Positions 32,692-49,331 of a stretch of DNA of 54,877 nt are shown piece by piece (the stretch's first letter is position 1; each line of letters begins with the position of its first letter). Below the pieces are notes generated by a model. It saw only the letters and a program-made list of their open reading frames with translations, was not told where the DNA came from and did not search any database. Source of the DNA: Mesorhizobium sp. 65-26 (GTDB lineage Bacteria > Pseudomonadota > Alphaproteobacteria > Rhizobiales > Rhizobiaceae); NCBI GenBank assembly GCA_001899205.1, contig MKVL01000032.1, positions 1 through 54,877 of the forward strand, given 5' to 3'. The position numbers and the translations under genes were made by a program.

Positions 32692-32735
32692 TTGCATTTC
32701 AATGAAAAATATGCTTTTATTGAATGAGTATTCAA
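32692..32735 (+). promoter_or_regulatory. Rieske promoter with BetI-type operator, site A
   Basis: A TTGCAT -35 element (32692-32697), a 17-bp spacer and TTTTAT -10 element (32715-32720) run directly into the palindrome TTGAATGAGTATTCAA (32720-32735). The operator covers the expected start of transcription. The same palindrome type occurs at 35601 and 44530, at the other promoters of this gene cluster. Confidence 0.68.
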
Positions 32736-32754
32736 CAAAAAGAAGAGCACATCC

Positions 32755-33957
32755 ATGAACCCGCACCTCCGTGACGTGGCGATCCCGAACGATTGGGACC
32801 GGCGGGGCCTGCCGGGCTGGAGCTACCATTCCGACGCGCTTCTCGAGCTGGAGAAGGAGCACGTTTTCCGCAACCACTGGCAGATCGCCGGCCACGTCTC
32901 CGACGTGCCGAATGCGGGCGATTACCTGACCATGGATGTCATCGGCGAACGTGCGCTGATCGTGCGCGGCAAGGACGGCGTCGTGCGTGCCTTCAACAAC
33001 ATGTGCCGCCATCGCGGCAGCCGCGTCGTCGCCGACAGCCAGGGCAACTGCAAGAACGCGCTGGTGTGCCCCTTCCATGGCTGGGTCTACAATCTCGACG
33101 GCACGCTGCGGGGCGCGGCCCGTCCGCGCTCATTCCCCGACCTCGACAAGACCGAGTTCGGCCTGATGCCGCTCGACCTCGAAATCTGGATGGGTTTCAT
33201 CTTCATCCGCTTCCGCAAGGGCGGCCCACAGCCGTCGGTGGCCGAACTGCTGAAGCCGATCGAGGAGGAAATCGCCCATTACCGTGTCGCCGACATGGTG
33301 CCCTCCTGGGGCATCTGGACACAGAAGTCGCCGGTCAACTGGAAGTCGGTGCGCGACGTCGACAACGAGGGCTACCATGTCGCGATGGCGCACCCGGCGC
33401 TGCAGGACCTCTACGGCGCCACCTATTTCGACGAGCCCTTCATCAACGGCGTGTCGCGTTCCTTCGCCACCTACAACCCGCATGCCGGGCGGCGCTGGAG
33501 CGTCGGCAACTATGTCAGGATCGCGCCCGAGCCGACGCATCTGCCGGATTATCTGAAGAAGGCCTGGGTCTATTACGGCATCTTTCCCAACGCGGTCATC
33601 TCGGTGATGCCGGAATCGGTGCAATTCTATCAGGAATTCCCGCTATCGACCGGCGAGACCCTGCTGCGCGGCGCCATCTACCGCTACCGCGACGAAAGCC
33701 GCGCACAGGCGGCCGCCCGTTACCTGTCGTTCCGCATCGATCGCGACACGATGGCCGAGGACGTGCAGCTTTCGGTGTGGTCGAACGAATCCATGCTGTC
33801 GGAAGCTTTCGAGGGCTTTTATCTCTCCGACCTCGAATATGGCGTGCGCACCCACCACGACCACCTGCGCAGGCAGATCCCCGTGCTCAGCCTGGAGACG
33901 GCGCCGGAGGAAAAAGACATGTGGTCGCTCAACGACGCGCTGCGGTCGCGGGGGTAG
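32755..33957 (+). CDS. Rieske non-heme iron oxygenase, quaternary-amine demethylase-like
   Basis: 400 residues. The Rieske centre has C84-x-H86 (NNMCRHRGSR) and C105-x2-H108 (VCPFHGW). The mononuclear iron site is H208 and H213 in DVDNEGYHVAMAHP, with D336 in AEDVQLSVW as third ligand and D203 as the bridging acid. The overall sequence looks like the alpha subunits acting on quaternary amines (glycine betaine, carnitine, stachydrine or choline monooxygenases) rather than arene dioxygenases. Such enzymes need a reductase; none is encoded in the window. It is under operator site A. Substrate assignment is inference. Confidence 0.85.
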   Translation: MNPHLRDVAIPNDWDRRGLPGWSYHSDALLELEKEHVFRNHWQIAGHVSDVPNAGDYLTMDVIGERALIVRGKDGVVRAFNNMCRHRGSRVVADSQGNCKNALVCPFHGWVYNLDGTLRGAARPRSFPDLDKTEFGLMPLDLEIWMGFIFIRFRKGGPQPSVAELLKPIEEEIAHYRVADMVPSWGIWTQKSPVNWKSVRDVDNEGYHVAMAHPALQDLYGATYFDEPFINGVSRSFATYNPHAGRRWSVGNYVRIAPEPTHLPDYLKKAWVYYGIFPNAVISVMPESVQFYQEFPLSTGETLLRGAIYRYRDESRAQAAARYLSFRIDRDTMAEDVQLSVWSNESMLSEAFEGFYLSDLEYGVRTHHDHLRRQIPVLSLETAPEEKDMWSLNDALRSRG

Positions 33958-33960
33958 CCT

Positions 33961-34096: not shown

Positions 34097-35515
34097 TCAC
34101 CCCCTCCAAACCCCTTCCTTCCTCAAATCGTCCATGGTGCGCGAGATGCCCTCGCGCAGGATACCCACCACGTCGTCGACCTGCTCGCGCGTGATGACCA
34201 GCGGCGGCGACATCACGCACATGTTGATCAGTGGCCGCACCAGCAGGCCGAGCTCATGGCAATGCGCGTCGATGCGCTTTCCGACATCCTTGTCGAGCTG
34301 CAGCGGGTTCTTGCTTTCGCGGTCGGCGACGCATTCGACGCAACCCATAAGCCCCATGCCGCGCACCTCGCCGACAAGCGGCAGTTCCTCGAGCGTCTTC
34401 AGCCGCGCCTGGAAATAGGGCGCGATATCGCGCGCATGGGCAAGCACACTCTCTTCCAGGAGATCGAGGTTCCTGAGCGCCACGGCGCAGCCGACCGGAT
34501 GGCTGGTGTAGGTCAGGCCGTGGCCGAACAGCGCGTCGGGATGGTTGGAGCGGCGCAACTCCTCCAGCAGCCGTTCCGAGATGATGACACCGCCGAGCGG
34601 AAAATAGCCCGAGGTGATGCCCTTGGCGAAGGTGATCATGTCGGGATCGATGCCGAACACATCGCCCGAGGCGAAGACATGGCCCAACCGCCCGAAGGCT
34701 GTCACCACCTCATCCGAGATGTAGAGGATGTCGTTTTCCCGGCAGATCTCGCGGATGCGCCTGAGATAGCCGTCCGGCGGGATGACGACGCCGCCGGAGG
34801 CCTGCACCGGCTCGCCGACGAAAGCGCCGATCCGATCGGCGCCGATGCGGTCGACGGTGTCGCGGAACTGATCGACAAGGAAATCGGCGAAGGCGGCGAC
34901 ATCCATGTCCTTCGGCCGCCGGAACGGGTCGGGCGAGGCAAGCTTGACCACCAGTTCGTCGGCGCCGTCCATCCAGTCGCGTTCGCGCGGGCGTCCGTTG
35001 AGCGAGGCCGACAGATAGGTCGAGCCGTGATAGGCCCCGCCCCGGCTCAGGATCAGCTTCTTCTCCTGACGGCCGCGCACATTGTTGTAGAACTGCATGA
35101 AGCGCAGCGCCGTCTCCACCGCGGAGGAACCGCCGGTGGTGTAGAAGACATGGCTGAGGTCGCCCGGCGCGTGCTCCGCGATGCGACGGGCAAGCTCCGC
35201 CGACGGCGCGTTCATCGTGTACCAGGGCGTGTTGTAGGACAGTGCCATCGCCTGGTCGTACATCACCTGGGCCAGCTCCTGCCGGCGATGGCCGACATTG
35301 ACGCACCACATGCCGGCCGGCCCGTCGATCAGCCGCTTGCCCTCGCCATCGGTGATGTAGATGCCCTCGCCCTCGCCGATCAGCGCGCGCGCTTCCGCGC
35401 CCACCGAGCCGGCGACCGGCCAGGGTTGGACGAGGTGCCGCCTGGCGAGCGCCACGGCGTCGTCCTCACCGGCACCGCGCATCTCGCTCGTCTTCATTTC
35501 CCTTGCGGCCGCCAT
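34097..35515 (-). CDS. Class III PLP-dependent aminotransferase
   Basis: 472 residues from an ATG preceded by AGGTGAGG. Landmarks of omega-amino acid:pyruvate or diamine aminotransferases are visible: TTGGSSAVETALRF, GAYHGSTYLSASLNG, cofactor aspartate D268 in ISDEVVTAFGR and the PLP lysine K298 in FAKGITSGYFPLGG. It would move an amino group from an amine or omega-amino acid to pyruvate or 2-oxoglutarate. It is divergent from the transporter operon and shares operator site B with it, which ties it to degradation of the imported compound. Confidence 0.9.
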   Translation of the reverse strand: MAAAREMKTSEMRGAGEDDAVALARRHLVQPWPVAGSVGAEARALIGEGEGIYITDGEGKRLIDGPAGMWCVNVGHRRQELAQVMYDQAMALSYNTPWYTMNAPSAELARRIAEHAPGDLSHVFYTTGGSSAVETALRFMQFYNNVRGRQEKKLILSRGGAYHGSTYLSASLNGRPRERDWMDGADELVVKLASPDPFRRPKDMDVAAFADFLVDQFRDTVDRIGADRIGAFVGEPVQASGGVVIPPDGYLRRIREICRENDILYISDEVVTAFGRLGHVFASGDVFGIDPDMITFAKGITSGYFPLGGVIISERLLEELRRSNHPDALFGHGLTYTSHPVGCAVALRNLDLLEESVLAHARDIAPYFQARLKTLEELPLVGEVRGMGLMGCVECVADRESKNPLQLDKDVGKRIDAHCHELGLLVRPLINMCVMSPPLVITREQVDDVVGILREGISRTMDDLRKEGVWRG

Positions 35516-35600: not shown

Positions 35601-35620
35601 TTGAATGGTCGTTCAGTCAA
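35601..35620. promoter_or_regulatory. BetI-type operator, site B, in a divergent promoter region
   Basis: TTGAATGGTCGTTCAG (35601-35616) is a one-to-two-mismatch version of the palindrome at sites A and C. It lies between the divergent aminotransferase and transporter operons. On the minus strand a TTGACT -35-like element (35614-35619) overlaps its right edge. Confidence 0.6.
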
Positions 35621-35838
35621 TATCGCAGAAATACCGCTTGATTTCAATCTGCGGATGCGTTCATGATGAAAGAAAGCCGGCAAGCTTGGAGCGCGGCGGG
35701 CAAAACGGGTCATCCGCCCTGCCTTCAACCGCGCCCCAGGCATGAAAAATCGGGAACATGCCGCCGGAACACAGCAATGGGATGCCGCATGGCGGGACAG
35801 TCCAAGCCAGCAACCGAGATCACACCCGGAGCCCTGCA

Positions 35839-36756
35839 ATGACAGCGGCCGCGGAAGGGTCGCCCCCGTTGCGCATGACGCGGGCCCGAAGAAATGCCCT
35901 TCTGCAGTCCGACCCCATCCAGGGCATGGCCCTGATCAGCCCGACCTTCCTCTATGCGCTCATCCTGCTGGTTCTGCCCATCCTGGTGGTCATCGCCCAC
36001 TCGTTCTGGACGCAGGACTACCTCACCATCGACCACACCTTCACGCTGGAGAACTACCGCCTCGCGCTGACCGAGCCGATCTACCGCGAACTGCTGTGGC
36101 GCTCGCTCTACATCTCGCTCACGGTCAGCCTGTTCACCGTGGTGCTGGCCTATCCCATCGCCTACTTCATTTCCTTCCACGGCGGCCGCCACAAGAGCCT
36201 GTGGCTGTTCCTCATCACCATTCCGTTCTGGACCAGCTACCTGCTGCGCGTGATGTCGTGGAAGGTCATCCTCGGCTACAATGGCGTGCTCAATTCCGGC
36301 CTGATGGGACTTGGCATACTGAGCGAGCCTTCGACGGCGCTGCTCTACAACTCCAGCGCCGTCATCATCACGCTCACCCATGCATGGGCCGCCTTCGCCA
36401 TCCTGCCGATCTTCGTCTCGCTGGAGAAGATCGACCGCACGCTGGTCGAGGCGGCGACCGATCTCGGCGACGGTCCCCTGCGCTCCTTCCTGCGCGTGAC
36501 CTTGCCGCTTTCGGCGCCGGGCATCATCTCTGCGACGCTGATCGTCATGATCCCGACGGTGGGTGACTACGTCACGCCGAAGCTCGTCGGCGGCAAGGAC
36601 GGCGTCATGATCGCCAACGCCATCCAGGCGCAGTTCGGCAAGGCTTCCAACTGGCCGCTCGGCGCGGCGCTGTCGGTCACCACCATGGTCATCGTGACCT
36701 TGATGGCCGGCGCCACCGTGCTCGTCATCCGTACCGCCGCGAGGCTGTCACGATGA
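35839..36756 (+). CDS. ABC transporter permease, PotB-like
   Basis: 305 residues from the ATG at 35839, with GGAG upstream; an earlier in-frame ATG at 35758 lacks support. It has six hydrophobic segments and the permease EAA loop in VEAATDLGDGPLRSFLRVTLPLSAPGII. The sequence is of the spermidine/putrescine (PotB) branch of ABC importers. It is the first gene of a permease-permease-ATPase operon under operator site B; its binding proteins are encoded in the opposite-strand operon at 39989 and 41804. Its stop overlaps the next ATG by 4 bp. Confidence 0.92.
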   Translation: MTAAAEGSPPLRMTRARRNALLQSDPIQGMALISPTFLYALILLVLPILVVIAHSFWTQDYLTIDHTFTLENYRLALTEPIYRELLWRSLYISLTVSLFTVVLAYPIAYFISFHGGRHKSLWLFLITIPFWTSYLLRVMSWKVILGYNGVLNSGLMGLGILSEPSTALLYNSSAVIITLTHAWAAFAILPIFVSLEKIDRTLVEAATDLGDGPLRSFLRVTLPLSAPGIISATLIVMIPTVGDYVTPKLVGGKDGVMIANAIQAQFGKASNWPLGAALSVTTMVIVTLMAGATVLVIRTAARLSR

Positions 36757-37577
36757 AGACGGGACGACGCTTCCTGCCGCGCAACTGGCTGTCGGTCTAC
36801 GCCTTTCTCTACATCGTCTTCCTCTACCTGCCCGTAATCTTCCTGCCGATCTTCTCGGTCAACACGGCCGCGACGCCCAAATTCCCGCTCTCGGGCTTCA
36901 CCCTGAAATGGTACGAGGATCTGCCCAACACGCCGGCGCTGATCGACGCGACCTGGAACAGCCTGCTGGTCGCCGTCTCCGCCTCGATCCTTGCCACGGT
37001 GCTCGGCATCCTCGCCGCGCGCTCCATCACCCGCTACCGCTACCCCGGCCGCCGCGCCGTCAACGGCCTGATCATGGCACCGCTGGTGCTGCCCGAGGTC
37101 ATCGTCGCCATCTCGATGCTGCTGGTGATGCTGCAGCTTGGGCTGAGCCTCTCGCTGTTCACCGTCGTGCTCGGCCATGTCCTCGTTTGCATCCCCTATT
37201 CGATGACCGTGCTGACCTCGGGCTTCGAGGGCTTCGACCGCAGCCTCGAGGAAGCCTCCGCCGACCTCGGCGAGAGTGCCTTCGGCACCTTCCGCCGCGT
37301 GACGCTGCCGATGGTGGCGCCGGCCATCATCTCCAGCCTGCTCGTCTGCTTCACCATCTCGCTCGACGAGTTCATCATCGCCTTCTTCCTGACCGGCACC
37401 GAGGCGACGCTGCCGATCTACATCTGGGGCCAGTTGCGCTTCGCGGCCAAGCTGCCCGGCGTGCTGGCGCTGGGCACGCTCCTGCTGGTCGCCTCATTCC
37501 TGCTGATGACCGTTGCCGAAGTCCTGCGCCGCCGCGCGGCCAGGCGCACCCAGAACGAGGGAGGGCTCTATGCCTGA
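36753..37577 (+). CDS. ABC transporter permease, PotC-like
   Basis: 274 residues, with the start overlapping the previous stop as ATGA. It has six predicted membrane helices and the EAA loop LEEASADLGESAFGTFRRVTLPMVAPAI. The sequence belongs to the PotC branch, which pairs with PotB in polyamine, betaine-like and related importers. It overlaps the ATPase start by 8 bp, so the three genes are translationally coupled. Confidence 0.92.
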   Translation: MKTGRRFLPRNWLSVYAFLYIVFLYLPVIFLPIFSVNTAATPKFPLSGFTLKWYEDLPNTPALIDATWNSLLVAVSASILATVLGILAARSITRYRYPGRRAVNGLIMAPLVLPEVIVAISMLLVMLQLGLSLSLFTVVLGHVLVCIPYSMTVLTSGFEGFDRSLEEASADLGESAFGTFRRVTLPMVAPAIISSLLVCFTISLDEFIIAFFLTGTEATLPIYIWGQLRFAAKLPGVLALGTLLLVASFLLMTVAEVLRRRAARRTQNEGGLYA

Positions 37578-38688
37578 GCGGCCCCATTCCGATCGCACGG
37601 TGGCCGACCGCGCGATGATCGAGATCCGCGACGTCACCCGCAGCTACGGGGCCTTCAAGGCGCTGGACGATGCCTCGCTGAGCATCCGCGAGGGCGAGTT
37701 CTTTTCCCTCCTCGGCCCCTCCGGTTGCGGCAAGACCACGCTGCTCAGGATGATCGCCGGCTTCGACAATCCGACCAGCGGATCGATCGCCGTCGATGGT
37801 CAGCCGATGGAAGGCATCCCCGCCAACCGCCGGCCGACCAACATGGTCTTTCAGAGCTACGCCATCTTCCCGCATCTCAATGTCGAGCAGAACGTCGCCT
37901 ACGGCCTGAAGCGGCTGAAGCTTGAGCGTGGCGAGGAACGGCGCCGGGTCGAGGAGGCGCTTGTTCAGGTGTCGCTCACCGGTCTTGGCAAGCGCCTTGC
38001 CAACGAGCTCTCCGGCGGCCAGCGCCAGCGCGTGGCGCTGGCCCGCGCGCTCGTCATGCGCCCGAAAGTGCTTCTGCTCGACGAGCCGCTGTCGGCGCTC
38101 GACAAGAAGCTGCGCGAGCAGATGCAGGTCGAACTGCGCCGCCTGCAACAGGCGGTCGGCATCACCTTCGTGCTGGTCACACACGACCAGTATGAGGCGC
38201 TGGCCATGTCGGACCGCATCGCGGTGATGTTCGGCGGCCGCATCGCGCAGGTCGCCTCGCCCAAGGAAATCTACCAGCGCCCGGTCAACCGCCAGGTCGC
38301 CGACTTCCTCGGCGGCATGAATTTCGTCAAGGCCGAGATCGTCGAGGAGAACGGCGCCTCGCTGGTGGTCGACACGCTGGGCTTCGGCCGGGTGAAGACG
38401 GACAAGCCGAAGGCCTTCGTGCGCAATGGCGGCGCGGCCACGCTCGGCATCCGACCGGAGCGGCTGCGCGTCCTGTGGGATAATGCGTCGGCCAAGTTCG
38501 AGGTCGCCGGCAAGGTGGTGGAGCGCCACTATTTCGGCGAGATCACCCACCTGATCGTCGAGATACCGGGGCTCGAAAAGCCGCTATCCGTCACCGAAAC
38601 CAATGATTTCGGCGCCGACGATATCCCGGTCGGCGCACCGATCCGCCTGGCCTACGATCCGGACGCGCTGGTGGCGATGGCCGACTGA
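37570..38688 (+). CDS. ABC transporter ATPase, PotA-like
   Basis: 372 residues from the ATG at 37570. Walker A is GPSGCGKTT (49-57), the Q loop is in NMVFQSYAIFPHLNV, the signature is LSGGQRQRVALARAL and Walker B is VLLLDEPLSALD, followed by an H loop in LVTHDQYEALAMSD. A C-terminal TOBE domain (about 285-370, GIRPERLRV onward) marks the PotA/MalK class. Its 3' end overlaps the convergent flavoprotein gene by 37 bp. Confidence 0.93.
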   Translation: MPERPHSDRTVADRAMIEIRDVTRSYGAFKALDDASLSIREGEFFSLLGPSGCGKTTLLRMIAGFDNPTSGSIAVDGQPMEGIPANRRPTNMVFQSYAIFPHLNVEQNVAYGLKRLKLERGEERRRVEEALVQVSLTGLGKRLANELSGGQRQRVALARALVMRPKVLLLDEPLSALDKKLREQMQVELRRLQQAVGITFVLVTHDQYEALAMSDRIAVMFGGRIAQVASPKEIYQRPVNRQVADFLGGMNFVKAEIVEENGASLVVDTLGFGRVKTDKPKAFVRNGGAATLGIRPERLRVLWDNASAKFEVAGKVVERHYFGEITHLIVEIPGLEKPLSVTETNDFGADDIPVGAPIRLAYDPDALVAMAD

Positions 38689-39992
38689 ATCGCGGTCGCG
38701 GCGATCCGCCCTGCGACGATCGCGCCTTCGACATAGCCGGGGAAAGAGGGCGACACTTCCGACGCGGCGAAATGGACAGGTGGCGCGCCGGCACGAATGA
38801 TGTTCTCCGCATCCCGCGCAGTGGCATCGACGATGAGATCGCAATAGGCGCCGCCGCTCCAGCGGTCCTGTGTCCAGTCCCTCTGATTGAAATCGACGAT
38901 CTCCAAAGCGTCCGGCCCGAGCGTTTCCGCCAGCCTTGCCATGACCTCGGCACGCAACGCCGACGGGCCGAGTCCGCGCCAGCGCAGCGCAAGCGGCCCG
39001 CCGACGAAGACGACGAGCGCCGCATGGCCCCCGTCCTTGCTGGCGTCGCAGGCGAACAGGCCCGGCAGGTCGCGCCACATCACCATGCCGCTCAGCCCCT
39101 TGTCACGCCAGAACGGCCTGGCGTAGCGCACCAGGATCTTGATCACCGCGCCGCTTTCCCAGACGCCCAATGCTCGTGCCAGGGGGGATGGCAAGGCCGG
39201 CGCGAAGTCGAGTTTCGCGGCCATGGCCGGAGGCAGCGCGACGAGCACGGCGCGCGCCTCCACGACGCCGCCGGCCGAGGCCGCGCGCACGCCCGCCGGA
39301 CCATGCTCGATGCGCGTGACCGGCGTGTTCAGCCGCAAACGATCGCCGAGATCGCCGGCAAGATCGTCGGCGAGCGACTGCATGGTCTCGCGCAGGAAAT
39401 ATTGCAGCTCGGGCACCTCGTTGGTGATGCGCCGATCATTGTCGATCAGATGCCAGAGCGGGACCTTGTCCAGCGCCAGGCACCACAGGCCTTCGATCAT
39501 AGAGCGGAAGGCGGCCTTGGCATCGGATGTGTCGGCCTGACGGTCGAGCCAGGCGGCGACGCTAAACCCGGCAATCGCTGGATCATCCGGATCGATCCCG
39601 TTCATGCGTTCGCGGATCGCCATCGAGGCATGATAGGTCCGATCCGCCCGGATAGCCGGCATCGACGGATGGGTGGTGAAATCGCCCTCGACATAGGTCT
39701 CGACGAATGTCTTGCCGCGCGCCTTCGCCAACGCCATCACCTGCGGCATGTCCTCGCACAGGAACTGGCCGCCGCTGTCGATCCATTCGCCGAGCCCGTT
39801 GCGCATGGCTTCCACGCGGCCGCCGACGCGCTCGCGCGCTTCAAGCAGCATGAAATCGATACCGGCGCGCTTCAGTTCAATCGCGGCGGACAGGCCGGTG
39901 AACCCGGCGCCCACGATGATGACATCGGTCCTTTCGACCCCGTCACCCGATGACCCTGCGCTGGTCTTCAATGGCCCTGCTTTGCTCTTCAA
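38652..39992 (-). CDS. Flavin monoamine oxidase-like FAD enzyme
   Basis: 446 residues. The N-terminal dinucleotide fold is TDVIIVGAGFTGLSAAIELK, followed by EARERVGGRVEAM, the arrangement of the amine-oxidase family (monoamine oxidase, polyamine oxidase). The C-terminal FAD segment is PSFPGYVEGAIVAGRIAA. It should oxidise a primary or secondary amine to an aldehyde or imine with release of hydrogen peroxide. Its start overlaps the stop of the preceding binding-protein gene by 4 bp and it is the last gene of the minus-strand operon from operator site C. Confidence 0.87.
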   Translation of the reverse strand: MKSKAGPLKTSAGSSGDGVERTDVIIVGAGFTGLSAAIELKRAGIDFMLLEARERVGGRVEAMRNGLGEWIDSGGQFLCEDMPQVMALAKARGKTFVETYVEGDFTTHPSMPAIRADRTYHASMAIRERMNGIDPDDPAIAGFSVAAWLDRQADTSDAKAAFRSMIEGLWCLALDKVPLWHLIDNDRRITNEVPELQYFLRETMQSLADDLAGDLGDRLRLNTPVTRIEHGPAGVRAASAGGVVEARAVLVALPPAMAAKLDFAPALPSPLARALGVWESGAVIKILVRYARPFWRDKGLSGMVMWRDLPGLFACDASKDGGHAALVVFVGGPLALRWRGLGPSALRAEVMARLAETLGPDALEIVDFNQRDWTQDRWSGGAYCDLIVDATARDAENIIRAGAPPVHFAASEVSPSFPGYVEGAIVAGRIAATAIQSAIATSASGS

Positions 39993-41065
39993 TAGCCAGC
40001 CTTGATCTTCTCGAACTCGGTGACCATGCGGCGCTTCAGCTCCGGCGGCACCGGCTGCTGGAACAAGGTCTTGTCGAGGAACTTGTCGAGGCCGTCAAAG
40101 CCGCGCTCGACCAGCAGCTTGTGGTCCATCGCCGCCATGCCGGCGGCGTTGCCATGGCCATAGCCGAAGGTCTTGACCATGTGTTCGGAAACGCCGGGCG
40201 CATTGACCGCGTTGAGGAAATCATAGGCCTGGTCGAGCTTGCCCGGCGCGTCCTTCATCAGCACATAGCCGCACACCCAGGTCGAGATGCCTTCCTGGGT
40301 GTCACGGTTCATCTCGATCGGCACGCCCTGGCCCTTGAGCGTCACATAGGTCTCGTTCCAGCCCCAGACCAGGTCGACCTCGTTGCCGGAAACGGCCTGG
40401 TTGAGATCGGTGTCGTCGGTCCAGTAGAAACGCACGTTCTTGTGCACGTCGCGCAGGAAGGCGGAGGCTTCCTTGAACTGCGCGTCCGTCATCCCCGTCC
40501 AGTCCTTCAGGCCGATGACCAGGCTCGCCAGCGCATAGGCATCGTCGACATTGTCGCCGATGGTGACGCGGCCCTTGAACTTCGGATCGGCGAAGACGCG
40601 CAGCGACTGCGCCTCGTCTCTGGTGACGTTGTCGGTGCGGTAGAGAAGCGAGGTGTTGCCCCAGTCGAACGGCATGAACCACGCCTTGCCGTCCGCCGTG
40701 GTGGCGAGATCCTTCATCGCCATGATGCCGGGGTTGAGGTCCTTCCAGCCGGCGATCCTCGACGTGTCGAGCGGCTGCAGCAGGCCTGCCTCGCGCCACT
40801 TCACCACGCTCTGCGAGCAGGGATGCGCGATGTCGGCCTTGAAGCCGGCGCGCATCTTCTCGAAGGCCTCGTCCTCGTCGCCGAAGAAGGAGAAGCTCGG
40901 ATCGGCGCCGTATTTGGCGGTATAGGCCGGATGCAGCATCGGATCCTCATAGCCCGACCAGTCGAACACGACGAGATCGCCACCGGCCTCGGCAAGCGTG
41001 TAGACCGTGCCCGCGCCCAGCATGACGGTGGCGGCCAGGACAAGGCGAGAAAGCATGGATTTCAT
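39989..41065 (-). CDS. Polyamine-type ABC substrate-binding protein, paralogue 1
   Basis: 358 residues with a signal peptide (MKSMLSRLVLAATVMLGAGT). The mature start GGDLVVFDWSGYEDPMLHPAYTAKYG and AGWKDLNPGIMAMKDLATTADGK are of the PotD/SBP_bac_8 type. By eye about two thirds of positions match the paralogue at 41804; the ones that differ cluster in likely ligand-contact segments (FDWGNTSLLYRTDN against WDWGDTQLTFNSEK). It probably feeds the permeases at 35839-37577 with a somewhat different solute. It is translationally coupled to the amine oxidase. Confidence 0.9.
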   Translation of the reverse strand: MKSMLSRLVLAATVMLGAGTVYTLAEAGGDLVVFDWSGYEDPMLHPAYTAKYGADPSFSFFGDEDEAFEKMRAGFKADIAHPCSQSVVKWREAGLLQPLDTSRIAGWKDLNPGIMAMKDLATTADGKAWFMPFDWGNTSLLYRTDNVTRDEAQSLRVFADPKFKGRVTIGDNVDDAYALASLVIGLKDWTGMTDAQFKEASAFLRDVHKNVRFYWTDDTDLNQAVSGNEVDLVWGWNETYVTLKGQGVPIEMNRDTQEGISTWVCGYVLMKDAPGKLDQAYDFLNAVNAPGVSEHMVKTFGYGHGNAAGMAAMDHKLLVERGFDGLDKFLDKTLFQQPVPPELKRRMVTEFEKIKAGY

Positions 41066-41155: not shown

Positions 41156-41734
41156 CTAGATCAACCCACGTCGACCGTTCAGGCGACGGTAGGCCGCGAG
41201 ACGGTTGGGGTTGGCATTTCTGTAGCGCTCGAGCTCGGTCACCAGCAGCCGCTCGCGTCCGAGAATCTCATCGGCAAGGCGCACCACATGGATGTTCGGC
41301 CATGGCTTGTTGGTGATGCGCAGCAGGTCCGCGAAGGCCGCGGCCTCGCCCTTGTCGCCGTGCGCGATGGCGAGCGCGACGAGGGCGACCGCCGTGCTGC
41401 GGCTGGCGCCCATGTGGCAGTGCACCAACAGCCGCGCGGCCTCGCCCGATCTCAGCCGGTCGTGCCAGTCCCGGAGGAATTCGACGATCTCCGCCATCAG
41501 GGCCGGCGTCAGCGGAAACTCCGCCGGCGCGTCACCGTCGTTGAAGCGACGCTGCAATGTCCTCGTCCCGGCGAAGCTCGGAACCTTGGCCGGGTCTATG
41601 GCGGGATCGAGCAAGGAGACGACATGGGTCGGGCGATAGTCGATCACATCCGCATGGATGCGGCCGGCAAAGAGCGCCGAGACGCGCAGGGCCTGCGCCG
41701 GGTTCCATTGCGACATCGCCGCACCCTCATCCAT
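41156..41734 (-). CDS. Tyrosine/dual-specificity phosphatase-like protein
   Basis: 192 residues. The cysteine-phosphatase signature is VHCHMGASRSTA with nucleophile C106 and R112, and a possible general acid in RFNDGDAPAEF upstream. The start at 41734 has GGAGGAAGG upstream; a second ATG at 41716 is possible. It is inserted between two paralogous transporter binding-protein genes, an unusual partner. It could dephosphorylate a protein or a small phosphate ester; the target is unknown. Confidence 0.85.
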   Translation of the reverse strand: MDEGAAMSQWNPAQALRVSALFAGRIHADVIDYRPTHVVSLLDPAIDPAKVPSFAGTRTLQRRFNDGDAPAEFPLTPALMAEIVEFLRDWHDRLRSGEAARLLVHCHMGASRSTAVALVALAIAHGDKGEAAAFADLLRITNKPWPNIHVVRLADEILGRERLLVTELERYRNANPNRLAAYRRLNGRRGLI

Positions 41735-41803: not shown

Positions 41804-42886
41804 TCAATAGCCGGCTTTGATCTTCTCGAACTCGGCGATCATCTTGAGCTTCAGCGCCGACGGCACGGGTGACTGGAACAGCGTCTTGTCGACGAATTTT
41901 CCGACATCGTCATAGCCCTTCTGCTTCAGCACCGCCGGGTCGACGCCGGCCATGCCCTTGGCGTTGGCCTGGCCATAGCCCCAGTCCTTCACCAGCACCT
42001 TGGCGACTTCAGGATCGTTGACCGCGTTGAGATAGTCATATGCCTTGTCGACATTGCCGGGCGCGTCCTTGAACAGCACGTAGCCGCACACCCAGGTCGA
42101 GATGCCTTCGTTCGTATCCTTCTTCGACTTGATCGGCACGCCGGCCGCCACCGACTGCACGGCGGCATCGTTCCAGGCCCAGGCGAGATCGACCTCGCCG
42201 CCGGAGAGCAACTGCACGATGTCGGTGGTGTCGGTCCAGTAGGAGCGCACGTTCTTGTGCACCTGGCGCAGGAAGTCGGACGCCTGCTTGAACTGGTCGT
42301 CCGTCATCTTGGTCCAGTCCTTGAGGCCGATGGCCAGGCTGGCGAGCGCGTAGGCGTCGTCGACATTGTCGCCGATCGAGACGCGCCCCTTGAATTTCGG
42401 ATCGGCGAAGGCCTTCAGCGACTGAACGTCTTTCTCGTCGACCTTCTCGGAATTGAAGGTGAGCTGCGTATCGCCCCAGTCCCATGGCATGAACCACACC
42501 TTGCCGTCGGGCGTGGTGGCCAGGTCCTTCATCGCCATGATGCCAGGATTAAGATCCTTCCAGCCGGTGATCTTCGATGGATCGAGCGGCTGGAGCAGAC
42601 CGGCCTCGCGCCACTTCACCACGCTCTGCGAGCAGGGGTGGCCGAGATCGGCCTTGAAGCCGGAGCGCACCTTCTCGAACGCCTCGTCCTCGTCGCCGAA
42701 GAAGGCAAAGGTCGGGGAATCGCCATTCTTCTCGACATATTTGGGATGGAAGTTGGGGGCCTCGTAGCCCGACCAGTCGAACACGACGAGATCCTTGTCG
42801 GCGGCGATCGCCAGCGCCGCCGCCGAAGCCGCGAGGGTTCCGGCCAGCGCCAGCGTCAATGTCAGGCGTCGGGTCATCTTCTTCAT
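41804..42886 (-). CDS. Polyamine-type ABC substrate-binding protein, paralogue 2
   Basis: 360 residues with a signal peptide (TRRLTLTLALAGTLAASAAALA). It is the close paralogue of the protein at 39989, sharing for example ADPKFKGR, GDNVDDAYALASL, EGISTWVCGYVL and the C-terminal EFEKIKAGY. AGAGGATGG precedes the ATG. It should bind the transported amine in the periplasm. Two such proteins for one PotABC transporter imply broadened substrate range. Confidence 0.92.
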   Translation of the reverse strand: MKKMTRRLTLTLALAGTLAASAAALAIAADKDLVVFDWSGYEAPNFHPKYVEKNGDSPTFAFFGDEDEAFEKVRSGFKADLGHPCSQSVVKWREAGLLQPLDPSKITGWKDLNPGIMAMKDLATTPDGKVWFMPWDWGDTQLTFNSEKVDEKDVQSLKAFADPKFKGRVSIGDNVDDAYALASLAIGLKDWTKMTDDQFKQASDFLRQVHKNVRSYWTDTTDIVQLLSGGEVDLAWAWNDAAVQSVAAGVPIKSKKDTNEGISTWVCGYVLFKDAPGNVDKAYDYLNAVNDPEVAKVLVKDWGYGQANAKGMAGVDPAVLKQKGYDDVGKFVDKTLFQSPVPSALKLKMIAEFEKIKAGY

Positions 42887-42927: not shown

Positions 42928-43644
42928 TCATGCCTCGCGCGGTTTGCCCGCCGGTGTCAGCGGGTAATGCTTGGGGAAGGCCGACGCCAGGAACTCGTTG
43001 GCCGCCTGCAGCGCCGTCTCGCGCGTGGTGTCTTCCGTTCCCATCATCAGGCGCAGCCACAGGCCTTCGAGCATCGCGCTCAGCGCCAGCGCCAGGCCTT
43101 GCGGATCGAAGCCGTAGCCGCCATCGGCCTTCAGCGCCTGGCAAAGCGCGACGAAATGGTTCTGGTAGGCCGCGTCGCGCGATCCGCTCAACGCCTGATA
43201 GGTCGGCCGCGACTTGGCCTCGCCCCAGAAGGCGCACCATGCCGCCAGCTTGCGCTTGTTACAGATCGAGCGGTCGAAGTCGGCCGCCACCAGCGCCTGC
43301 AACTGCCGGGCGGGATCGTCGCCAGCCTTCTGCAGCGCGCCGCGCCAATGCGCGGAGTACTCGTCGTACATATGCTGGAGGGTGGCGACGAGGAGCTTTT
43401 CCTTGCTCTCGAAATGGAAGTTGACGATGCCGCGCGACAGGCCGGCACCGTCGGCCACGTCGGCCATCGTCGTTTCGGAGTAACCGCGCTTGGCGAGGGA
43501 ATCGATCGTCGCCTCGATGAGCTGAAGCTGCCGGACCTCCTTCGAGGCCTTGCGTCCGCGCTTTTCGGCGTCCCCCTTCTGCGCCGGTTCGGGGAAGCTC
43601 TCCCCGGCCTGTGCTGTCTTCATGAGCGTGACTGTCTCCGCCAT
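42928..43644 (-). CDS. BetI-type TetR-family regulator
   Basis: 238 residues. After a charged leader of about 35 residues the protein has RQLQLIEATIDSLAKRGYSETTMADVADGAGLSRGIVNFHFESKEKLLVATLQHM, a TetR HTH of the BetI subfamily (choline/betaine-responsive repressors), and a C-terminal domain with DFDRSICNKRKLAAWCAFWGEAKSRPTYQ, conserved among BetI relatives. It starts 6 bp after the methyltransferase stop and lies in the operon below operator site C, so it probably autoregulates. The likely effector is a quaternary amine or its aldehyde. Confidence 0.88.
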   Translation of the reverse strand: MAETVTLMKTAQAGESFPEPAQKGDAEKRGRKASKEVRQLQLIEATIDSLAKRGYSETTMADVADGAGLSRGIVNFHFESKEKLLVATLQHMYDEYSAHWRGALQKAGDDPARQLQALVAADFDRSICNKRKLAAWCAFWGEAKSRPTYQALSGSRDAAYQNHFVALCQALKADGGYGFDPQGLALALSAMLEGLWLRLMMGTEDTTRETALQAANEFLASAFPKHYPLTPAGKPREA

Positions 43645-43650: not shown

Positions 43651-44523
43651 CTACCCCACCGGCTTCCAACCGCGCAGATGAGTGGGACGGTGCTCGCCAC
43701 TGTCAAGCACCTTCTGCATGGCCTCCCAGGTCCTGATGTTCTTGTCGACATAGGCCGCGCCGACCACGGCGGCGACAGCGCCGTAGAGCGGTCCCTTGAG
43801 GCGCGCGAGTTCCTCGCGCGCGACCTCGCGGTACCACGGGTTACGGTCGCGCGCGCCGACATCGCGAAAGCCGGCACCGCGCATCGCATCGACGTAGCGC
43901 GCCGGCGAGGCCATGGCGAAGGAAAGGCCCTCGGCCGCGACATAGGCCTTCATCTGCGGCGACGGCTCGCCATCATGCGCGATCATCCAGTTCGACGCCG
44001 CGAAGACTCCGCCCGGCTTCAGCACGCGGAAGATCTCGGCGAACAGCGCGTCCTTGTCGGGCACGTGCAGCAGCGCGTCCTTGGAGAAGACGACGTCGAA
44101 GGAAGCGTCGGTAAAAGGCAGCCGCCCCGGCGGTGCCTGGACGAAGCTGGCGCGCTCGGCGAGCCCTTGCGCCTCGGCCCGGCGCCTGGCCGCTTCCACG
44201 ACCGGCCGCTCGACATCGAAGCCGATGGCACTGGCGGCGCCATGGCTGGCGACCAGATGCAGCGTTATCCCTCCCGAGCCGCAGCCTATGTCGAGGATGG
44301 TCTTGCCCTGGAGCGGCAGGCCCTCGACCACGCGATCCACTTCGTCGGGACCGCCGGGCGAGAGATAACCCTCGCCCCACAGCGCTTCGAGGAAGCGGAT
44401 GGCTGTGTCGTCATACTCCGGTTCGGCATGCGCGATCTCGATCATCGCATCTCGCTCTTCGGCGCCGGCTATCCATTCGGAAAGGCTGCCAAAGCCTAGC
44501 GCATGCGCGCGAAAACGCAACAT
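43651..44523 (-). CDS. Class I SAM-dependent methyltransferase
   Basis: 290 residues from the ATG at 44523 ([20 protein letters not shown]); another ATG at 44541 would lie inside the operator. The SAM motif is [16 protein letters not shown], with the acidic motif II residue in AIGFDVERP and post-motif [25 protein letters not shown]. The fold resembles small-molecule N- or C-methyltransferases. It heads the minus-strand operon at operator site C, so it methylates or demethylates an intermediate of the pathway, or detoxifies one. The substrate is unknown. Confidence 0.87.
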
Positions 44524-44529: not shown

Positions 44530-44545
44530 TTGAACATTCATTCAA
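44530..44545. promoter_or_regulatory. BetI-type operator, site C, in a divergent promoter region
   Basis: TTGAACATTCATTCAA is a palindrome with the same TTGAAY-n4-RTTCAA form as sites A and B. It lies between the methyltransferase-led minus-strand operon and the flavoprotein-led plus-strand operon, 7 bases from the methyltransferase start at 44523. It would control both directions. Confidence 0.7.
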
Positions 44546-44644: not shown

Positions 44645-46264
44645 ATGAAAGCCTGGGATGCGATCGTCATCGGCGGCGGCCACAATGGCCTGGTCAATGC
44701 CTGCTACCTGCAGCGCGCCGGGCTCGACGTGCTGGTTGTCGAGAAGAACGAATGGGTCGGCGGCGCCGCCACCAGCCGCGAACTGACACCGGGCTTCCTC
44801 TACTCCAACTGCTCCTATGTCTGCTCGCTGTTCCGGCCCGAGATCATGCGCGACCTGGAACTGCCCCGCTTCGGCCTGCAGGTGATCTCCTATGAAGGCG
44901 GCGCCGTGTTCACGCGCGACGGCGACTATCTCGCCAACTACCGCGACCACCACGCGCATCGCCGCGAATTCGCGCGCTTCTCCAGGCGCGACGCCGAGGC
45001 CTACGACCGCTATTCGCGCGACGTCACGCGGCAATGCCGCTTCATCCAGCCTCTGCTGATGCGCACCGCGCCCGACCCGACCAGCTTCAGGCCGCGCGAC
45101 CTCGGCGAGCTGCTCTATCTCGGCAGGAAGTTCGCCGGCCTGTCGGCCGAGGAGATGGCGCTGACCCTGCGCTTCTGGACGATGTCGATCTCCGATTTCC
45201 TCGACGAGTATTTCGAGACCGACGTCATCAAGGCGAACTTCGCGCTCTCCGGCATCATCGGCACCGCGCTCGGGCCGATGTCGCCCGGCACCGCCTATGT
45301 CCTGCTCCACCACTATATGGGCGAGGTCGACGGCTCGGTCGGCGCCTGGGGCTATGCGCGCGGCGGCATGGGCGCGGTGACCAGGGCGCTGGCCGCCTCC
45401 TTCAGGGCCTCCGGCGGCACCATCCGCACCGGCGCGGAAGTCGACCATGTGCTGGTCAGGAACGGCAAGGCAAGAGGCGTGGTGCTGGCCGGCGGCGAGG
45501 AGATTCCCGGCAAGCTCGTCGTCTCCAACGCCGACGTCAAGCGCACCTTCCTGAAGCTGGTCGAGGAGAAGGAACTGCCCGACATCTTCCTGCGCCGGGT
45601 CCGGAACTTCAAGATCCGCGGCTCGTCCGGCAAGGTCAACATCGCGCTCGACTCCTTGCCGGAATTTCCTGCCCTGCCGAAGGATTCGCCCGTCTATCGA
45701 GGTGACATGCATTTCACCGATTCCATGGAGCGTATGGAGCGCGCCTATGACGACTGGAAGGCCGGCCGCTGGTCCGCCGACCCTTTCCTCGACATGGTCA
45801 TCCCGACGACGCTCGACCCGACGATGGCGCCGCCGGGCAAGCACTTCATGAGCTGCTTCGTGCAGTACGCGCCACCCAAGGTGAACGGCCGCGACTGGAC
45901 GGATGCCGACCGCGACGGCTTCGCCGAAAGCGTGATCTCGCAGATCGCGGAATATTCACCAGGCTTCCGCGACCGCATCGTCCACATGGAGGTGCGCACG
46001 CCGCGCGAGCTCGAGGCGGAAGTCGGCCTCACCGAAGGCAACATCTTCCAGGGCGAACTCACCTTCGACCAGTTGCTGTTCAACCGCCCCGTACCCGGCT
46101 ACGCGCAATATCGCTCGCCGGTCGGCGGGCTCTATATGTGCGGCTCCTCCACCCATCCCGGAGGCGGCGTCATGGGCGCGCCGGGACGCAACGCCGCCGT
46201 AGAGATCCTTCGCGATCTCGCCAAGTCCACATCCCATATGAGCCCGGCCCATGACGTCATCTAG
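44645..46264 (+). CDS. CrtI/PYROXD2-like FAD oxidoreductase, paralogue 1
   Basis: 539 residues from the ATG at 44645; a GTG 27 bp upstream is an alternative. The FAD fold is MKAWDAIVIGGGHNGLVNAC with VEKNEWVGGAATSRELTPGF, and the C-terminal FAD segment is GGLYMCGSSTHPGGGVMGAPGRNAA, as in phytoene-dehydrogenase-like and human PYROXD2 proteins. No carotenoid genes adjoin. It would dehydrogenate or isomerise an intermediate. The reading frame overlaps the next gene by 14 bp, so the two are translationally coupled. Confidence 0.9.
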   Translation: MKAWDAIVIGGGHNGLVNACYLQRAGLDVLVVEKNEWVGGAATSRELTPGFLYSNCSYVCSLFRPEIMRDLELPRFGLQVISYEGGAVFTRDGDYLANYRDHHAHRREFARFSRRDAEAYDRYSRDVTRQCRFIQPLLMRTAPDPTSFRPRDLGELLYLGRKFAGLSAEEMALTLRFWTMSISDFLDEYFETDVIKANFALSGIIGTALGPMSPGTAYVLLHHYMGEVDGSVGAWGYARGGMGAVTRALAASFRASGGTIRTGAEVDHVLVRNGKARGVVLAGGEEIPGKLVVSNADVKRTFLKLVEEKELPDIFLRRVRNFKIRGSSGKVNIALDSLPEFPALPKDSPVYRGDMHFTDSMERMERAYDDWKAGRWSADPFLDMVIPTTLDPTMAPPGKHFMSCFVQYAPPKVNGRDWTDADRDGFAESVISQIAEYSPGFRDRIVHMEVRTPRELEAEVGLTEGNIFQGELTFDQLLFNRPVPGYAQYRSPVGGLYMCGSSTHPGGGVMGAPGRNAAVEILRDLAKSTSHMSPAHDVI

Positions 46265-47825
46265 CCCGACATGGGACGCCATCGTCATCGGCGGCGGCCA
46301 CAACGGCCTTGTCGCCGCGGCCACCCTGGCGAAATCGGGGCGCAAGGTTCTGCTTCTCGAAGCCGGCAGTGACCTCGGCGGTGCCGCGCGCACCGAGGAA
46401 TTCGCGCCGGGTTTCCGCGTCTCGGTGCTGGCGCATGTGCTCAACCGCCTGCATCCCGATGTCGTCAGGACGCTTGAGCTCGAACGCCACGGGCTCACCA
46501 TCGAACGCGGCGATTTCGCGCCGTCCGTCGCCTTGTCGAAGGACGGCGCGCTCGTCCTGCATGGCGCCTATGGCGAAGTGCTGACGGGGGCGGCCCCTTC
46601 CGAACAGTCGGCGTGGAAGGAGCTGCGCGCGCAGTTGCTGCGCTATGCCGGTATCCTGAAGCCGTTCCTCGCGCGCCGGCCGCCCGATCTCTCCGGCATG
46701 TCGATGGCCGAGATGGCGGGGCTCGGCCAGACCGCGCTCGCCCTGAAAAAGCTTGGCAAGGAAGACATGCGCGATTTCCTGCGCGTGCTTTTGATGAATG
46801 TCGCCGATCTGCTCGACGAACAACTCGCCGACGACAGGCTGAAGGGGCTGCTCGCCTTCGACGCGACGCTCGGCTCCCATCTCGGGCCGCGTTCGCCGAC
46901 ATCGCTGCTCGGCCTCTACTACCGGCTGGCGGGCGAGGCCGGCGGAGCCGCCGGCGCGCAGGTGATCCCGAGGGGCGGCATGGGCGCTGTCGCCGCCGCC
47001 ATCCGCGCCGCCGCCGACAAGGCCGGCGTCTCGATCCGCCCGGCTTCGGCCGTTGCCCGGATCATTGTCGAGAAGACCCGCGCCGTCGGTGTGACGCTGG
47101 CGGGCGGCGAGGAGCTGCGCGCGCGGGCGATCGTCTCGGCCATCAACCCCGCCACCACCTTCCTCGACCTCGTCGGCCCGAGCGAGGTCGACACCGGCTT
47201 CGTGCGCAAGGTGAGGAACATCCGCATGAAGGGCGACGCGGCGAAGTTGCACCTGGCGCTCGACCGGCCGCCGCAATTCACCGGCGTCGATGCGGTTGAC
47301 CACAAGGGACGGCTGGTGATCGCCCCCTCGCCCGACCATGTCGAGCGCGCCTTCAACCCGTCGAAATATGGCGAGTTCTCGCCCGAGCCGGTGATGGAGA
47401 TCACGCTGCCCAGCCTCACGGATGCCTCGCTCGCGCCGTCCGGCGCCTGCGTGCTCTCGGCGGTGGTGCAATACGCGCCCTACGCGCTGAAACAGGGCTG
47501 GACCGCCGGCAAGCCGCAATTCCTCGCGGCGATCATGGCGCAGCTCGAAACCCATGCCCCCGGCATCGGCTCGACCGTTCGCCATGCCGAGTTGCTGACG
47601 CCCGCCGACATCGAAGCACGCTACCGCGTGCCCGGTGGCCATTGGCACCATGGCGAGCTGCAGGCCGACCAGATGCTGATGTCGCGACCCGTGGCAGGCT
47701 GGGCTGGCTATGACACGCCGATCGAGGGCCTGTTTCTTGCCGGCGCCGGCTCGCATCCGGGCGGCGGCGTTTCCGGCGCGCCCGGCCTCAACGCGGCGCG
47801 ACGCATCATCGCGATGAAGGTATGA
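46251..47825 (+). CDS. CrtI/PYROXD2-like FAD oxidoreductase, paralogue 2
   Basis: 524 residues. It has the same N-terminal FAD fold (DAIVIGGGHNGLVAAATLAKSG, EAGSDLGGAARTEEFAPGF) and C-terminal GLFLAGAGSHPGGGVSGAPGLNAARR as its upstream neighbour, but the middle differs. Tandem, overlapping genes of this kind suggest a heterodimer or two consecutive oxidations. It overlaps the GcvT-like start by 4 bp. Confidence 0.9.
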   Translation: MTSSSPTWDAIVIGGGHNGLVAAATLAKSGRKVLLLEAGSDLGGAARTEEFAPGFRVSVLAHVLNRLHPDVVRTLELERHGLTIERGDFAPSVALSKDGALVLHGAYGEVLTGAAPSEQSAWKELRAQLLRYAGILKPFLARRPPDLSGMSMAEMAGLGQTALALKKLGKEDMRDFLRVLLMNVADLLDEQLADDRLKGLLAFDATLGSHLGPRSPTSLLGLYYRLAGEAGGAAGAQVIPRGGMGAVAAAIRAAADKAGVSIRPASAVARIIVEKTRAVGVTLAGGEELRARAIVSAINPATTFLDLVGPSEVDTGFVRKVRNIRMKGDAAKLHLALDRPPQFTGVDAVDHKGRLVIAPSPDHVERAFNPSKYGEFSPEPVMEITLPSLTDASLAPSGACVLSAVVQYAPYALKQGWTAGKPQFLAAIMAQLETHAPGIGSTVRHAELLTPADIEARYRVPGGHWHHGELQADQMLMSRPVAGWAGYDTPIEGLFLAGAGSHPGGGVSGAPGLNAARRIIAMKV

Positions 47826-49069
47826 CCATGATCCCGCAAAGCGCCGAAGCCGCACCCCAGGGCAATTCCCGCGCCGCCGCGCAATCGCATTTCCGCACGC
47901 TGCGCCCCGGCACGCCGTTCCAGCCACGCATCGACGCGCTGGCGCTGAAGAACGACTGGTACGACTGGGCAGGCTACCGCGCGCCGCATTCGCTGTGGGA
48001 CGAGGAGCTCGAGTATTTCGCCATACGCAGCCAGGCAGCGCTCTTCGACATCTCGCCGATGACCAAATACCGCATCGAGGGCCCGGACGCCGAAGCGTAT
48101 CTCGATCGGGTCACGCTGCGCGACGTGACCAGGCTGAAGCCGGGCCGCGTGCACTACACGGCGTGGTGCGACGACGAAGGCTTCGTTCTCGACGACGGCA
48201 CATTGTTCCGGCTGTCGCCGACTCGTTTCCGGCTCTGTTCGCAGGAGCGGCACCTTCCCTGGTTGCTCGACAGCGCCTTCCGGTTCGACGTCACGGTCGA
48301 GGAGGAGACGGAGGCCATCGCTGGCCTGGCGCTGCAGGGCCCGACCTCTTCCGCGATCCTGCGCGACGCGGGCTTTGCCGGCGTCGAACGGCTCAAGGTC
48401 TTCGATCTCGCCGCGTTCGACCATGACGGCGCCAGCGTTGTCATCTCGCGCACCGGCTTCACCGGCGATCTTGGCTACGAATTGTTCGTGCCGGCTGGAA
48501 AAGCGCTGGGCCTGTGGGACAGGCTGATGGTCGCGGGCGCGCCGCGCGGCATCCGCGCCATCGGCTACACCGCCTTGAACCGCGCGCGGCTGGAGGCTGG
48601 GCTGATCGTCGCCAATGCCGATTTCACGACATCGGAGCATGCCATCCGCGCCGATCGCACGCGCATGCCGGACGAGATCGGCCTCGGCTTCATGGTCGAT
48701 CCGGAAAAGGGCAATTTCAATGGCCGCCGCGCCATCCTCGAGGCACGCGCCGGCCGCAAGCTACGTCATGTCCTCGTCGGACTGGAGATCGAAGGCAACA
48801 TCCCCGCCGAACATGCCATCGTCTATCACAAGAAGAGCCAGGAGGTCGGCCTGGTGAGCGCGGCGATGTGGTCGCCCATGGCCAAGCGCAACATCGCGAT
48901 CGCCTCGCTGGCGCGCCCATATGGTGATACCATCGTGGACGACCTGTGGGTCGAGATCTACGCCATGCGCGAACTGCAGTACCAGAAGCTGATGAAACGG
49001 GCCAAGGTGGTGCCCCGGCCCTTCATCAAGCTCGACCGCCGCACCGCCAGCCCGCCGGCGGATTTCTGA
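47822..49069 (+). CDS. GcvT-like folate-dependent aminomethyltransferase
   Basis: 415 residues. The folate-binding GcvT fold is visible: an N-terminal YDWAGYRAPHSLWDEELEYFAIRSQAALFDISPM segment, AYLDRVTLRDV, a mid-protein SRTGFTGDLGYELFVP and C-terminal barrel (RKLRHVLVGLEIEGNIPAEHAI). Relatives transfer a one-carbon unit from an amine or sulfonium to tetrahydrofolate (glycine cleavage T protein, dimethylglycine/sarcosine enzymes, DmdA). It starts within the stop of the preceding FAD gene (ATGA). A role capturing the C1 unit released by demethylation is inferred. Confidence 0.9.
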   Translation: MTMIPQSAEAAPQGNSRAAAQSHFRTLRPGTPFQPRIDALALKNDWYDWAGYRAPHSLWDEELEYFAIRSQAALFDISPMTKYRIEGPDAEAYLDRVTLRDVTRLKPGRVHYTAWCDDEGFVLDDGTLFRLSPTRFRLCSQERHLPWLLDSAFRFDVTVEEETEAIAGLALQGPTSSAILRDAGFAGVERLKVFDLAAFDHDGASVVISRTGFTGDLGYELFVPAGKALGLWDRLMVAGAPRGIRAIGYTALNRARLEAGLIVANADFTTSEHAIRADRTRMPDEIGLGFMVDPEKGNFNGRRAILEARAGRKLRHVLVGLEIEGNIPAEHAIVYHKKSQEVGLVSAAMWSPMAKRNIAIASLARPYGDTIVDDLWVEIYAMRELQYQKLMKRAKVVPRPFIKLDRRTASPPADF

Positions 49070-49070
49070 G

Positions 49071-49331
49071 ATGGCCAGCGAAGCGGACGACAGGGAAGCC
49101 GAGGCGGAAGCCGCTGAGCAGTGGGGATTGATCAACACCCCGCTCGGCGAGAAATGGTCGGGCCGCACGCGCTATGCCGCCGCCATGTATTTCTACAAGC
49201 GTGACGAGATGAACGCGGAGACGCTGGAGGTCTACCGCATCTGCGCGCGGCTGGATAACGAGGACCCGCTGCCGATCATCCGCGACCGTGGCGTCGGCAA
49301 GGATTGGCTGAAGCGCATGGGCTACAGATAG
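49071..49331 (+). CDS. 86-residue conserved-looking small protein, unknown function
   Basis: 86 residues (MASEADDREAEAEAAEQWGL onward), starting one base after the GcvT-like stop and so clearly part of the operon. It is soluble, acidic at the N-terminus, and has AAMYFYKRDEMNAETLEVYRICARLDNEDPLP in the middle. I do not recognise a named family. Its strict coupling to a folate enzyme suggests a subunit or accessory. Confidence 0.75.
   Translation: MASEADDREAEAEAAEQWGLINTPLGEKWSGRTRYAAAMYFYKRDEMNAETLEVYRICARLDNEDPLPIIRDRGVGKDWLKRMGYR

Follow-up and report, generated by a model that had tools for sequence, protein, structure and literature searches.

A 54,877-nucleotide stretch of Mesorhizobium sp. 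65-26 (contig MKVL01000032.1, assembly GCA_001899205.1), hereafter called the window, carries a cluster of 15 genes that runs from a Rieske oxygenase gene to a gene for an 86-residue protein and includes a gene for a TetR-type regulator (42928-43644). Three matching palindromes, A, B and C, lie in the regions from which these genes would be transcribed (Table 1). Judging from the sequence, we consider it highly probable that A–C are operators of this TetR protein, through which the whole uptake and catabolism cluster, its own operon included, would be switched. By layout, each of the 15 genes has A, B or C upstream of it, as a preliminary description of the locus had proposed, and five units are predicted: the Rieske gene behind A; the aminotransferase gene and potBCA on either side of B; and MT-TetR-SBP2-DSP-SBP1-AMO and FAD1-FAD2-GcvT-P86 on either side of C. 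From this gene layout, each unit would form a single transcript.

Table 1. Predicted genes and regulatory elements of the cluster (window coordinates)
Feature	Position	Strand	Remarks
Operator A (predicted)	32720..32735		TTGAATGAGTATTCAA; exact match to TTGAAYnnnnRTTCAA; 3' end 19 bases before Rieske ATG
Rieske ring-hydroxylating-type oxygenase	32755..33957	+	nearest solved relative carnitine monooxygenase
Class III aminotransferase	34097..35515	-	NF005447, above cut-off
Operator B (predicted)	35601..35616		TTGAATGGTCGTTCAG; one mismatch; between aminotransferase (-) and potB (+)
Putative aminotransferase promoter	35619..35647	-	TTGAAA-17-GATATT; 9/12 consensus matches; operator B after 2-base gap
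PotB-like ATP-binding cassette (ABC) permease	35758..36756	+	
PotC-like ABC permease	36753..37577	+	
PotA-like ABC ATPase	37570..38688	+	longest open reading frame (ORF) from 37513; ATG 37570 assumed
Flavin amine oxidase (AMO)	38652..39992	-	monoamine oxidase (MAO)/putrescine-oxidase-like
PotD-like solute-binding protein 1 (SBP1)	39989..41065	-	
Tyrosine/dual-specificity phosphatase-like protein (DSP)	41156..41734	-	weak match below cut-offs
PotD-like solute-binding protein 2 (SBP2)	41804..42886	-	
TetR regulator	42928..43644	-	BetI-type C-terminal domain; PF13977, PF00440; recognition helix LSRGIVNFHF
S-adenosylmethionine (SAM) methyltransferase (MT)	43651..44445	-	ORF open to 44541
Operator C (predicted)	44530..44545		TTGAACATTCATTCAA; exact match; between methyltransferase (-) and FAD1 (+)
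FAD1, CrtO-like flavin adenine dinucleotide (FAD) oxidoreductase	44645..46264	+	
FAD2, CrtO-like FAD oxidoreductase	46251..47825	+	
GcvT-like aminomethyltransferase	47822..49069	+	nearest = C-terminal part of trimethylamine N-oxide (TMAO) demethylase
86-residue protein (P86)	49071..49331	+	no family match; co-conserved with cluster

The preliminary description had assigned the three 16-mers a common form, TTGAAYnnnnRTTCAA; the coordinates proved correct and A and C matched exactly, but B deviated at one base. Within the window alone the motif was only mildly enriched, since six matches with up to two mismatches stood against 2.1 expected and 3 of 100 shuffles reached six. Its specificity rests on the genome-wide search (6.84 Mb), in which the exact pattern was rare and two of its three places fell in the cluster (A and C); the third, C17:62480, a possible further member of the regulon, adjoins a 287-residue ORF without a Pfam match. 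Allowing one mismatch, 16 places were found in the genome, compared with nine for the reversed-pattern control, and four in the window (A, B, C and 49505). The Poisson probability that three of the 16 should fall within 16.64 kb was approximately 1e-5. A scoring matrix trained on 81 sites, all from other genomes, gave 27.6 for C, 24.7 for A and 23.4 for B, and its next-best score in the window was 8.5 at position 49505, which was rejected as a fourth operator and lies inside an outer-membrane-protein gene (49378-50055). Of the 55 near-matches that were listed in the genome, A, B and C scored best, followed by C17:62480 (19.8) and a place scoring 17.3. Both the initial impression that other promoters of the window lack the motif and the expectation that a genome-wide scan would return few good matches were thereby borne out by the matrix. 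Elsewhere in this genome, the near-palindromes TTGAACCGATAGTCAA and TTGAATCGCTAGTCAA were noticed at C25:147865 and C25:148062, with 197 bp between them.

Relatives of the TetR protein at E <= 1e-40 were present in 36 of the 151 genomes of the family, the own genome counted, and 36 loci (680 kb) were taken from the other 35, onto which the 15 window proteins were mapped. With up to one mismatch, the motif occurred 78 times in these orthologous loci and the reversed pattern not once; at exactly two mismatches there was no excess (35 vs 37). Among loci that have the gene in question and do not run off the stretch, sites with up to one mismatch preceded the Rieske gene in 18 of 21, the aminotransferase gene in 25 of 28 and FAD1 in 27 of 30. 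The Rieske exceptions were L088-L090, whose TetR shares only 46-52% identity with that of the window; the aminotransferase exceptions were L085, L091 and L090 (the last with two mismatches); and those for FAD1 were L077 (two mismatches), L088 and L089, of which the latter two carry an exact site instead between the methyltransferase gene and a second TetR gene. Such exceptions apart, the palindromes were kept in related genomes that keep the genes and the regulator, as the earlier proposal had anticipated. Information content reached 1.65-1.72 bits per motif column vs 0.41-0.91 in the 40-bp flanks. The site usually lay 15-20 bases ahead of the Rieske start in the orthologues and 17-20 bases ahead in all of ten further Rieske genes, most of whose stretches had been picked because they bear the site. 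Carriers of the gene cluster include Mesorhizobium, Phyllobacterium, Rhizobium and Shinella.

Presence of the site followed that of the regulator, also when the Rieske gene had moved away from it. At the order level, a Rieske gene was found at E <= 1e-100 in 21 of 297 genomes, 20 of them with a readable upstream region, and 13 of these 20 had a site with up to one mismatch within about 80 bases of the Rieske start. All 12 genomes with a TetR at least 55% identical had the site, compared with one of the eight in which identity was 48% or lower or no TetR matched at E <= 1e-35. The site remained in G394 and G411, whose Rieske and TetR genes are about 30 kb apart, and in G186, G227, G253, G374 and G393, in which the two genes fall on different contigs of the draft. 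The regulator is not all that separates the two groups, because several of the 12 site-bearing genomes share the genus of the window, and because in L119-L121, among the seven without a site, the Rieske gene seems by eye to lie directly behind an upstream reading frame. In the family sample, the exact pattern TTGAAYRNNYRTTCAA was found in 35 of 36 genomes with the TetR (69 sites), including all 33 whose TetR is at least 52% identical, vs 28 of 115 without it (39 sites; Fisher P 7e-16, uncorrected for kinship); the reversed-pattern control gave 4 and 10, respectively. The sole TetR-bearing genome lacking the pattern (G087) has a recognition helix of the SH type described below, and its TetR gene is preceded by a perfect palindrome, TTGACTGATCAGTCAA. 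Five of the 28 site-bearing genomes without the TetR were inspected: in G089 the site, on a contig of 5.2 kb, is followed by the Rieske gene, and at the sites of G017 and G020 neither a Rieske nor a TetR gene was found.

The 42928-43644 protein scored 49.9 bits against TetR_N (PF00440; gathering threshold 24) and 70.4 bits against TetR_C_6 (PF13977; 27). Its recognition helix, which from the TetR fold we take to be residues 69-78 (LSRGIVNFHF), allowed those of 80 FAD1 loci with a detectable TetR, 65 in number, to be typed by residues 70-71 as SR, SH or SQ. SR loci carried a TTGAA-type palindrome with up to one mismatch in 47 of 53 cases and a TTGAC-type palindrome (TTGACnnnnnnGTCAA) in 0 of 53, and SH loci showed the opposite, 0 of 10 and 10 of 10, while the reversed controls were zero. 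The six SR loci missing such a site carry a two-mismatch form, such as CTGAATGATCATTCAG, and of 13 loci whose stretch includes an upstream region but lacks a TetR, two had the site. Coarser windows of +/-1.5 kb gave sites at 43 of 52 SR loci vs 3 of 16 in the comparison group overall. Together, co-occurrence and the pairing of helix with operator make this TetR the likely binder of A–C.

An earlier guess at the SH operator, TTGAYTGnnCARTCAA, fitted only two of seven SH loci and was discarded. The helix SHGLV was observed, with TTGACnnnnnnGTCAA-like palindromes replacing the TTGAA ones, in L106 (12834-13478), L236, L238, L241, L244-L248, L250 and L251, many of them Rhodobacterales.

Several results count against this assignment or limit the reach of the pairing. 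The two SQ loci had neither type of palindrome (0/2 each). The TTGAC form was derived from 15 SH loci that include all ten SH loci of the test, and its 10/10 score therefore arose by construction, which leaves the zeros as the real test: TTGAC in 0/53 SR loci, TTGAA in 0/10 SH loci and no reversed-control match. In the tree, whose bootstrap had not converged, SH needs two changes, one for a clade of 16 and one for L092, which stands apart, so that the pairing is clean but corresponds to only one or two evolutionary events. Within +/-1.5 kb, the association with the helix did not reach significance among the order-level loci (6/13 vs 3/10; P 0.67), a site was missing at 9 of 52 SR loci, four of which come from a single family (L144, L150-L152), and the SH locus L148 had a one-mismatch TTGAA-type match. 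In two further inspected genomes without the TetR, G079 and G025, the exact site precedes a TetR gene that shares 27-31% identity with that of the window, and cross-binding of the site by TetR paralogues is therefore possible. Since FAD1 orthologues at least 65% identical always occurred together with the TetR in the family sample (31/31), this sample offers no regulator-less cluster for comparison. Lastly, C is flanked by conserved blocks that read by eye as divergent promoters, TTGCAA-16-TAGGMT for the methyltransferase gene and TGGACA... for FAD1, and it lies upstream of both and not over them, which fits simple repression less well.

As for the mode of regulation, the TetR dimer would recognise 16-bp TTGAAYRnnYRTTCAA sites with somewhat variable ends at the three regulatory regions, most likely repressing the cluster while the pathway substrate or a metabolite is absent and letting go of the DNA upon binding it. 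If the assignment is right, C would also provide autoregulation, because the TetR gene lies behind it. B stands two bases past the putative aminotransferase promoter, and the transcript start would consequently fall inside B, as for a repressor. This promoter-like pair looked similar by eye in most rows of the orthologue alignment; since a consensus scan of the region returned four promoter-like sites vs 2.2 expected, it counts for little taken alone. The same scan gave no sigma-70 promoter at A, where the preliminary description had seen the palindrome overlapping a predicted -10 element and start; that detail was not borne out. Neither did it report the eye-read promoters beside C, and repression from C, which lies upstream of both, is thus less clear. 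An alternative is that the TetR might activate at some sites, notably C, and repress at others. C between divergent promoters, upstream of both -35 elements, together with B overlapping a start region, would suit such a dual role, and LuxR of Vibrio harveyi, a TetR-type protein, is reported both to activate and to repress (PMC2628434). However, the promoters beside C are a reading of conserved blocks that the consensus scan did not support, and most TetR proteins repress; we regard a dual role as unlikely, if worth keeping in mind.

Repression by the local TetR must also be weighed against binding of A–C by another regulator, either the choline BetI or a BetI-like paralogue linked to an MTTB gene, with the local TetR acting on some other target. 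Candidates are at hand, as TIGR03384, the BetI model, finds 32 matches in this genome, two of them above the cut-off, and the MTTB-linked paralogue, at C25:360848, sits between two related palindromes, CTTGTTGTACGAACGTTCAACAAG and CTTGTTGAACGATCGTACAACAAG. Against this, the canonical BetI has a different box of its own. Its gene, at C25:654572-655138 (L094 4552-5262; 254.6 bits), is accompanied by genes for choline sulfatase and choline dehydrogenase, with all three scoring above cut-off, and beside this betI-betC-betA locus stands ATTGACGCGTCAAT, a perfect betI box (L094 5177); choline BetI is disfavoured as the binder because its own box sits at its own locus. That box was absent as operator of the three cluster regions, which carry TTGAAY....RTTCAA, and betA, betB, betC and betT were not found among the 15 cluster genes. 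The window regulator itself scored 123.7 bits against TIGR03384, below the cut-off of 201.3, and passed only the looser NF001978 (122.3 vs 118). The label BetI-type given to it at the outset therefore holds for the C-terminal domain but not for identity with choline BetI. Moreover, over the 151 genomes the presence of the site tracks orthologues of the window TetR, and the identity of the half-site tracks its recognition helix, which makes binding by another regulator improbable. It is scarcely credible that A–C arose by chance or were inherited and serve no function: the mild excess seen in the window alone would allow it, but the sites are kept at the same positions over many genera while their flanks diverged, and relocated Rieske genes retain them.

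With regard to function, the gene content suggests that a quaternary or methylated amine is imported and then demethylated in steps. Uptake through the PotABCD-type transporter would come first; the Rieske enzyme would then N-demethylate or hydroxylate the imported amine, the flavoproteins would oxidise, the GcvT-like protein would pass the one-carbon unit to folate, and transamination would be the last step. Among solved structures, carnitine monooxygenase is nearest to the Rieske protein, followed by 3vca, presumably the stachydrine enzyme Stc2, and 4qup, which is listed as a demethylase. Given the enzymes of the cluster, the ligand of the TetR would also be a quaternary or methylated amine. 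In one locus, L159, the aminotransferase gene is followed (2802-7567) by genes for a lipase, a phosphoesterase, a methyltransferase and a sulfatase; the idea of a lipid head group as substrate, taken from these extra genes, was dropped because none of them was matched in the other 58 loci searched or in the window.

Two gene products of the cluster call for separate comment. The longest ORF of the methyltransferase begins at 44541, within site C; ATG 44445 is the likelier start, because in 20 of 32 homologues the alignment starts at residues 24-43, compared with residues 1-19 in 11 and residue 215 in one. A relative of the 86-residue protein (41%) was found on a Fuscovulum plasmid (L106 25647-26498), where the alignment falls at the beginning of a protein that bears a DMSP (dimethylsulfoniopropionate)-lyase Pfam domain, inside the same gene set.

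Taken together, these data indicate a conserved local regulon that probably has this TetR as its cognate regulator. Operator-like sites are shared by the regulator's own operon and the neighbouring catabolic operons, as in local autoregulated TetR regulons, and the operator is tied to the recognition helix within the limits set out above. With some hesitation, we lean towards a broader view, in which a BetI-related TetR clade of Hyphomicrobiales and relatives, with an operator of its own, governs a widespread undescribed methylated-amine pathway that combines a Rieske enzyme with split flavoprotein/GcvT demethylation, and in which Arg or His at position 71, with neighbouring changes, goes with the shift from TTGAA to TTGAC as a natural specificity switch. 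With a probable operator, regulator and gene set named, the substrate can be sought via inducers of the cluster or release of the regulator, and the match of TTGAA/TTGAC with SR/SH offers a directly testable specificity rule. The clade is also set apart from choline BetI, with which automatic annotation may confuse it, as one of the two BetI models is passed. The titles and abstract openings listed in the literature searches, whose coverage left out most of the subscription literature, contained no description of this operator or cluster.

Among known enzymes, the Rieske monooxygenases of glycine betaine (GbcA) and carnitine (CntA) and TMAO demethylase are relatives of the Rieske and GcvT-like proteins of the cluster. 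However, both stay far below the equivalog cut-offs: the Rieske protein scores 131.7 bits against NF058607, the GbcA model, whose cut-off is 670, and the GcvT-like protein 249.6 against NF053776 for TMAO demethylase (cut-off 1100), covering only profile positions 387-727 of 763.

With regard to regulators, canonical BetI shares with the window protein the TetR family, the BetI-type C-terminal domain, a palindromic operator with TTGA...TCAA ends and control of methylated-amine catabolism, which is predicted here. It differs in its box, ATTGACGCGTCAAT instead of a TTGAAYRnnYRTTCAA-like site, and in its linkage to betABC, compared with Rieske, FAD, GcvT and Pot-type genes here. According to a study of Ruegeria pomeroyi (PMC12442346), ATTGACGCGTCAAT is identical to the BetI1 palindrome footprinted there, and the two boxes of BetI2 of strain DSS-3 deviate from the betI box and share AAACTTGAAC. 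It is thus already known from that source that BetI-like paralogues can have their own operators, and BetI2 resembles the window TetR as a BetI-like paralogue with non-betI-box operators; unlike it, BetI2 controls betI2-betTA and responds to choline, whereas the predicted regulon comprises other genes behind three separate operators.

A further parallel occurs in the same genome, at C25:353000-368000, where a second BetI-like TetR gene lies beside S15 peptidase, Opp-type transporter, MTTB and OYE (old yellow enzyme)-type genes, and this region is probably a sister regulon. This TetR (L097 7771-8460) is 28% identical to that of the window, has the helix VSRGLINHHF and is flanked by the 24-bp near-palindromes CTTGTTGTACGAACGTTCAACAAG and CTTGTTGAACGATCGTACAACAAG (L097 229-244, 12117-12132), whose TTGTAC/TTGAAC operators have longer arms. 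It resembles the window regulator in its BetI-type C-terminal domain, in its linkage to a gene of the trimethylamine-methyltransferase family and in the TTGTTGnAC half-sites of the two palindromes around it, which also occur at site C.

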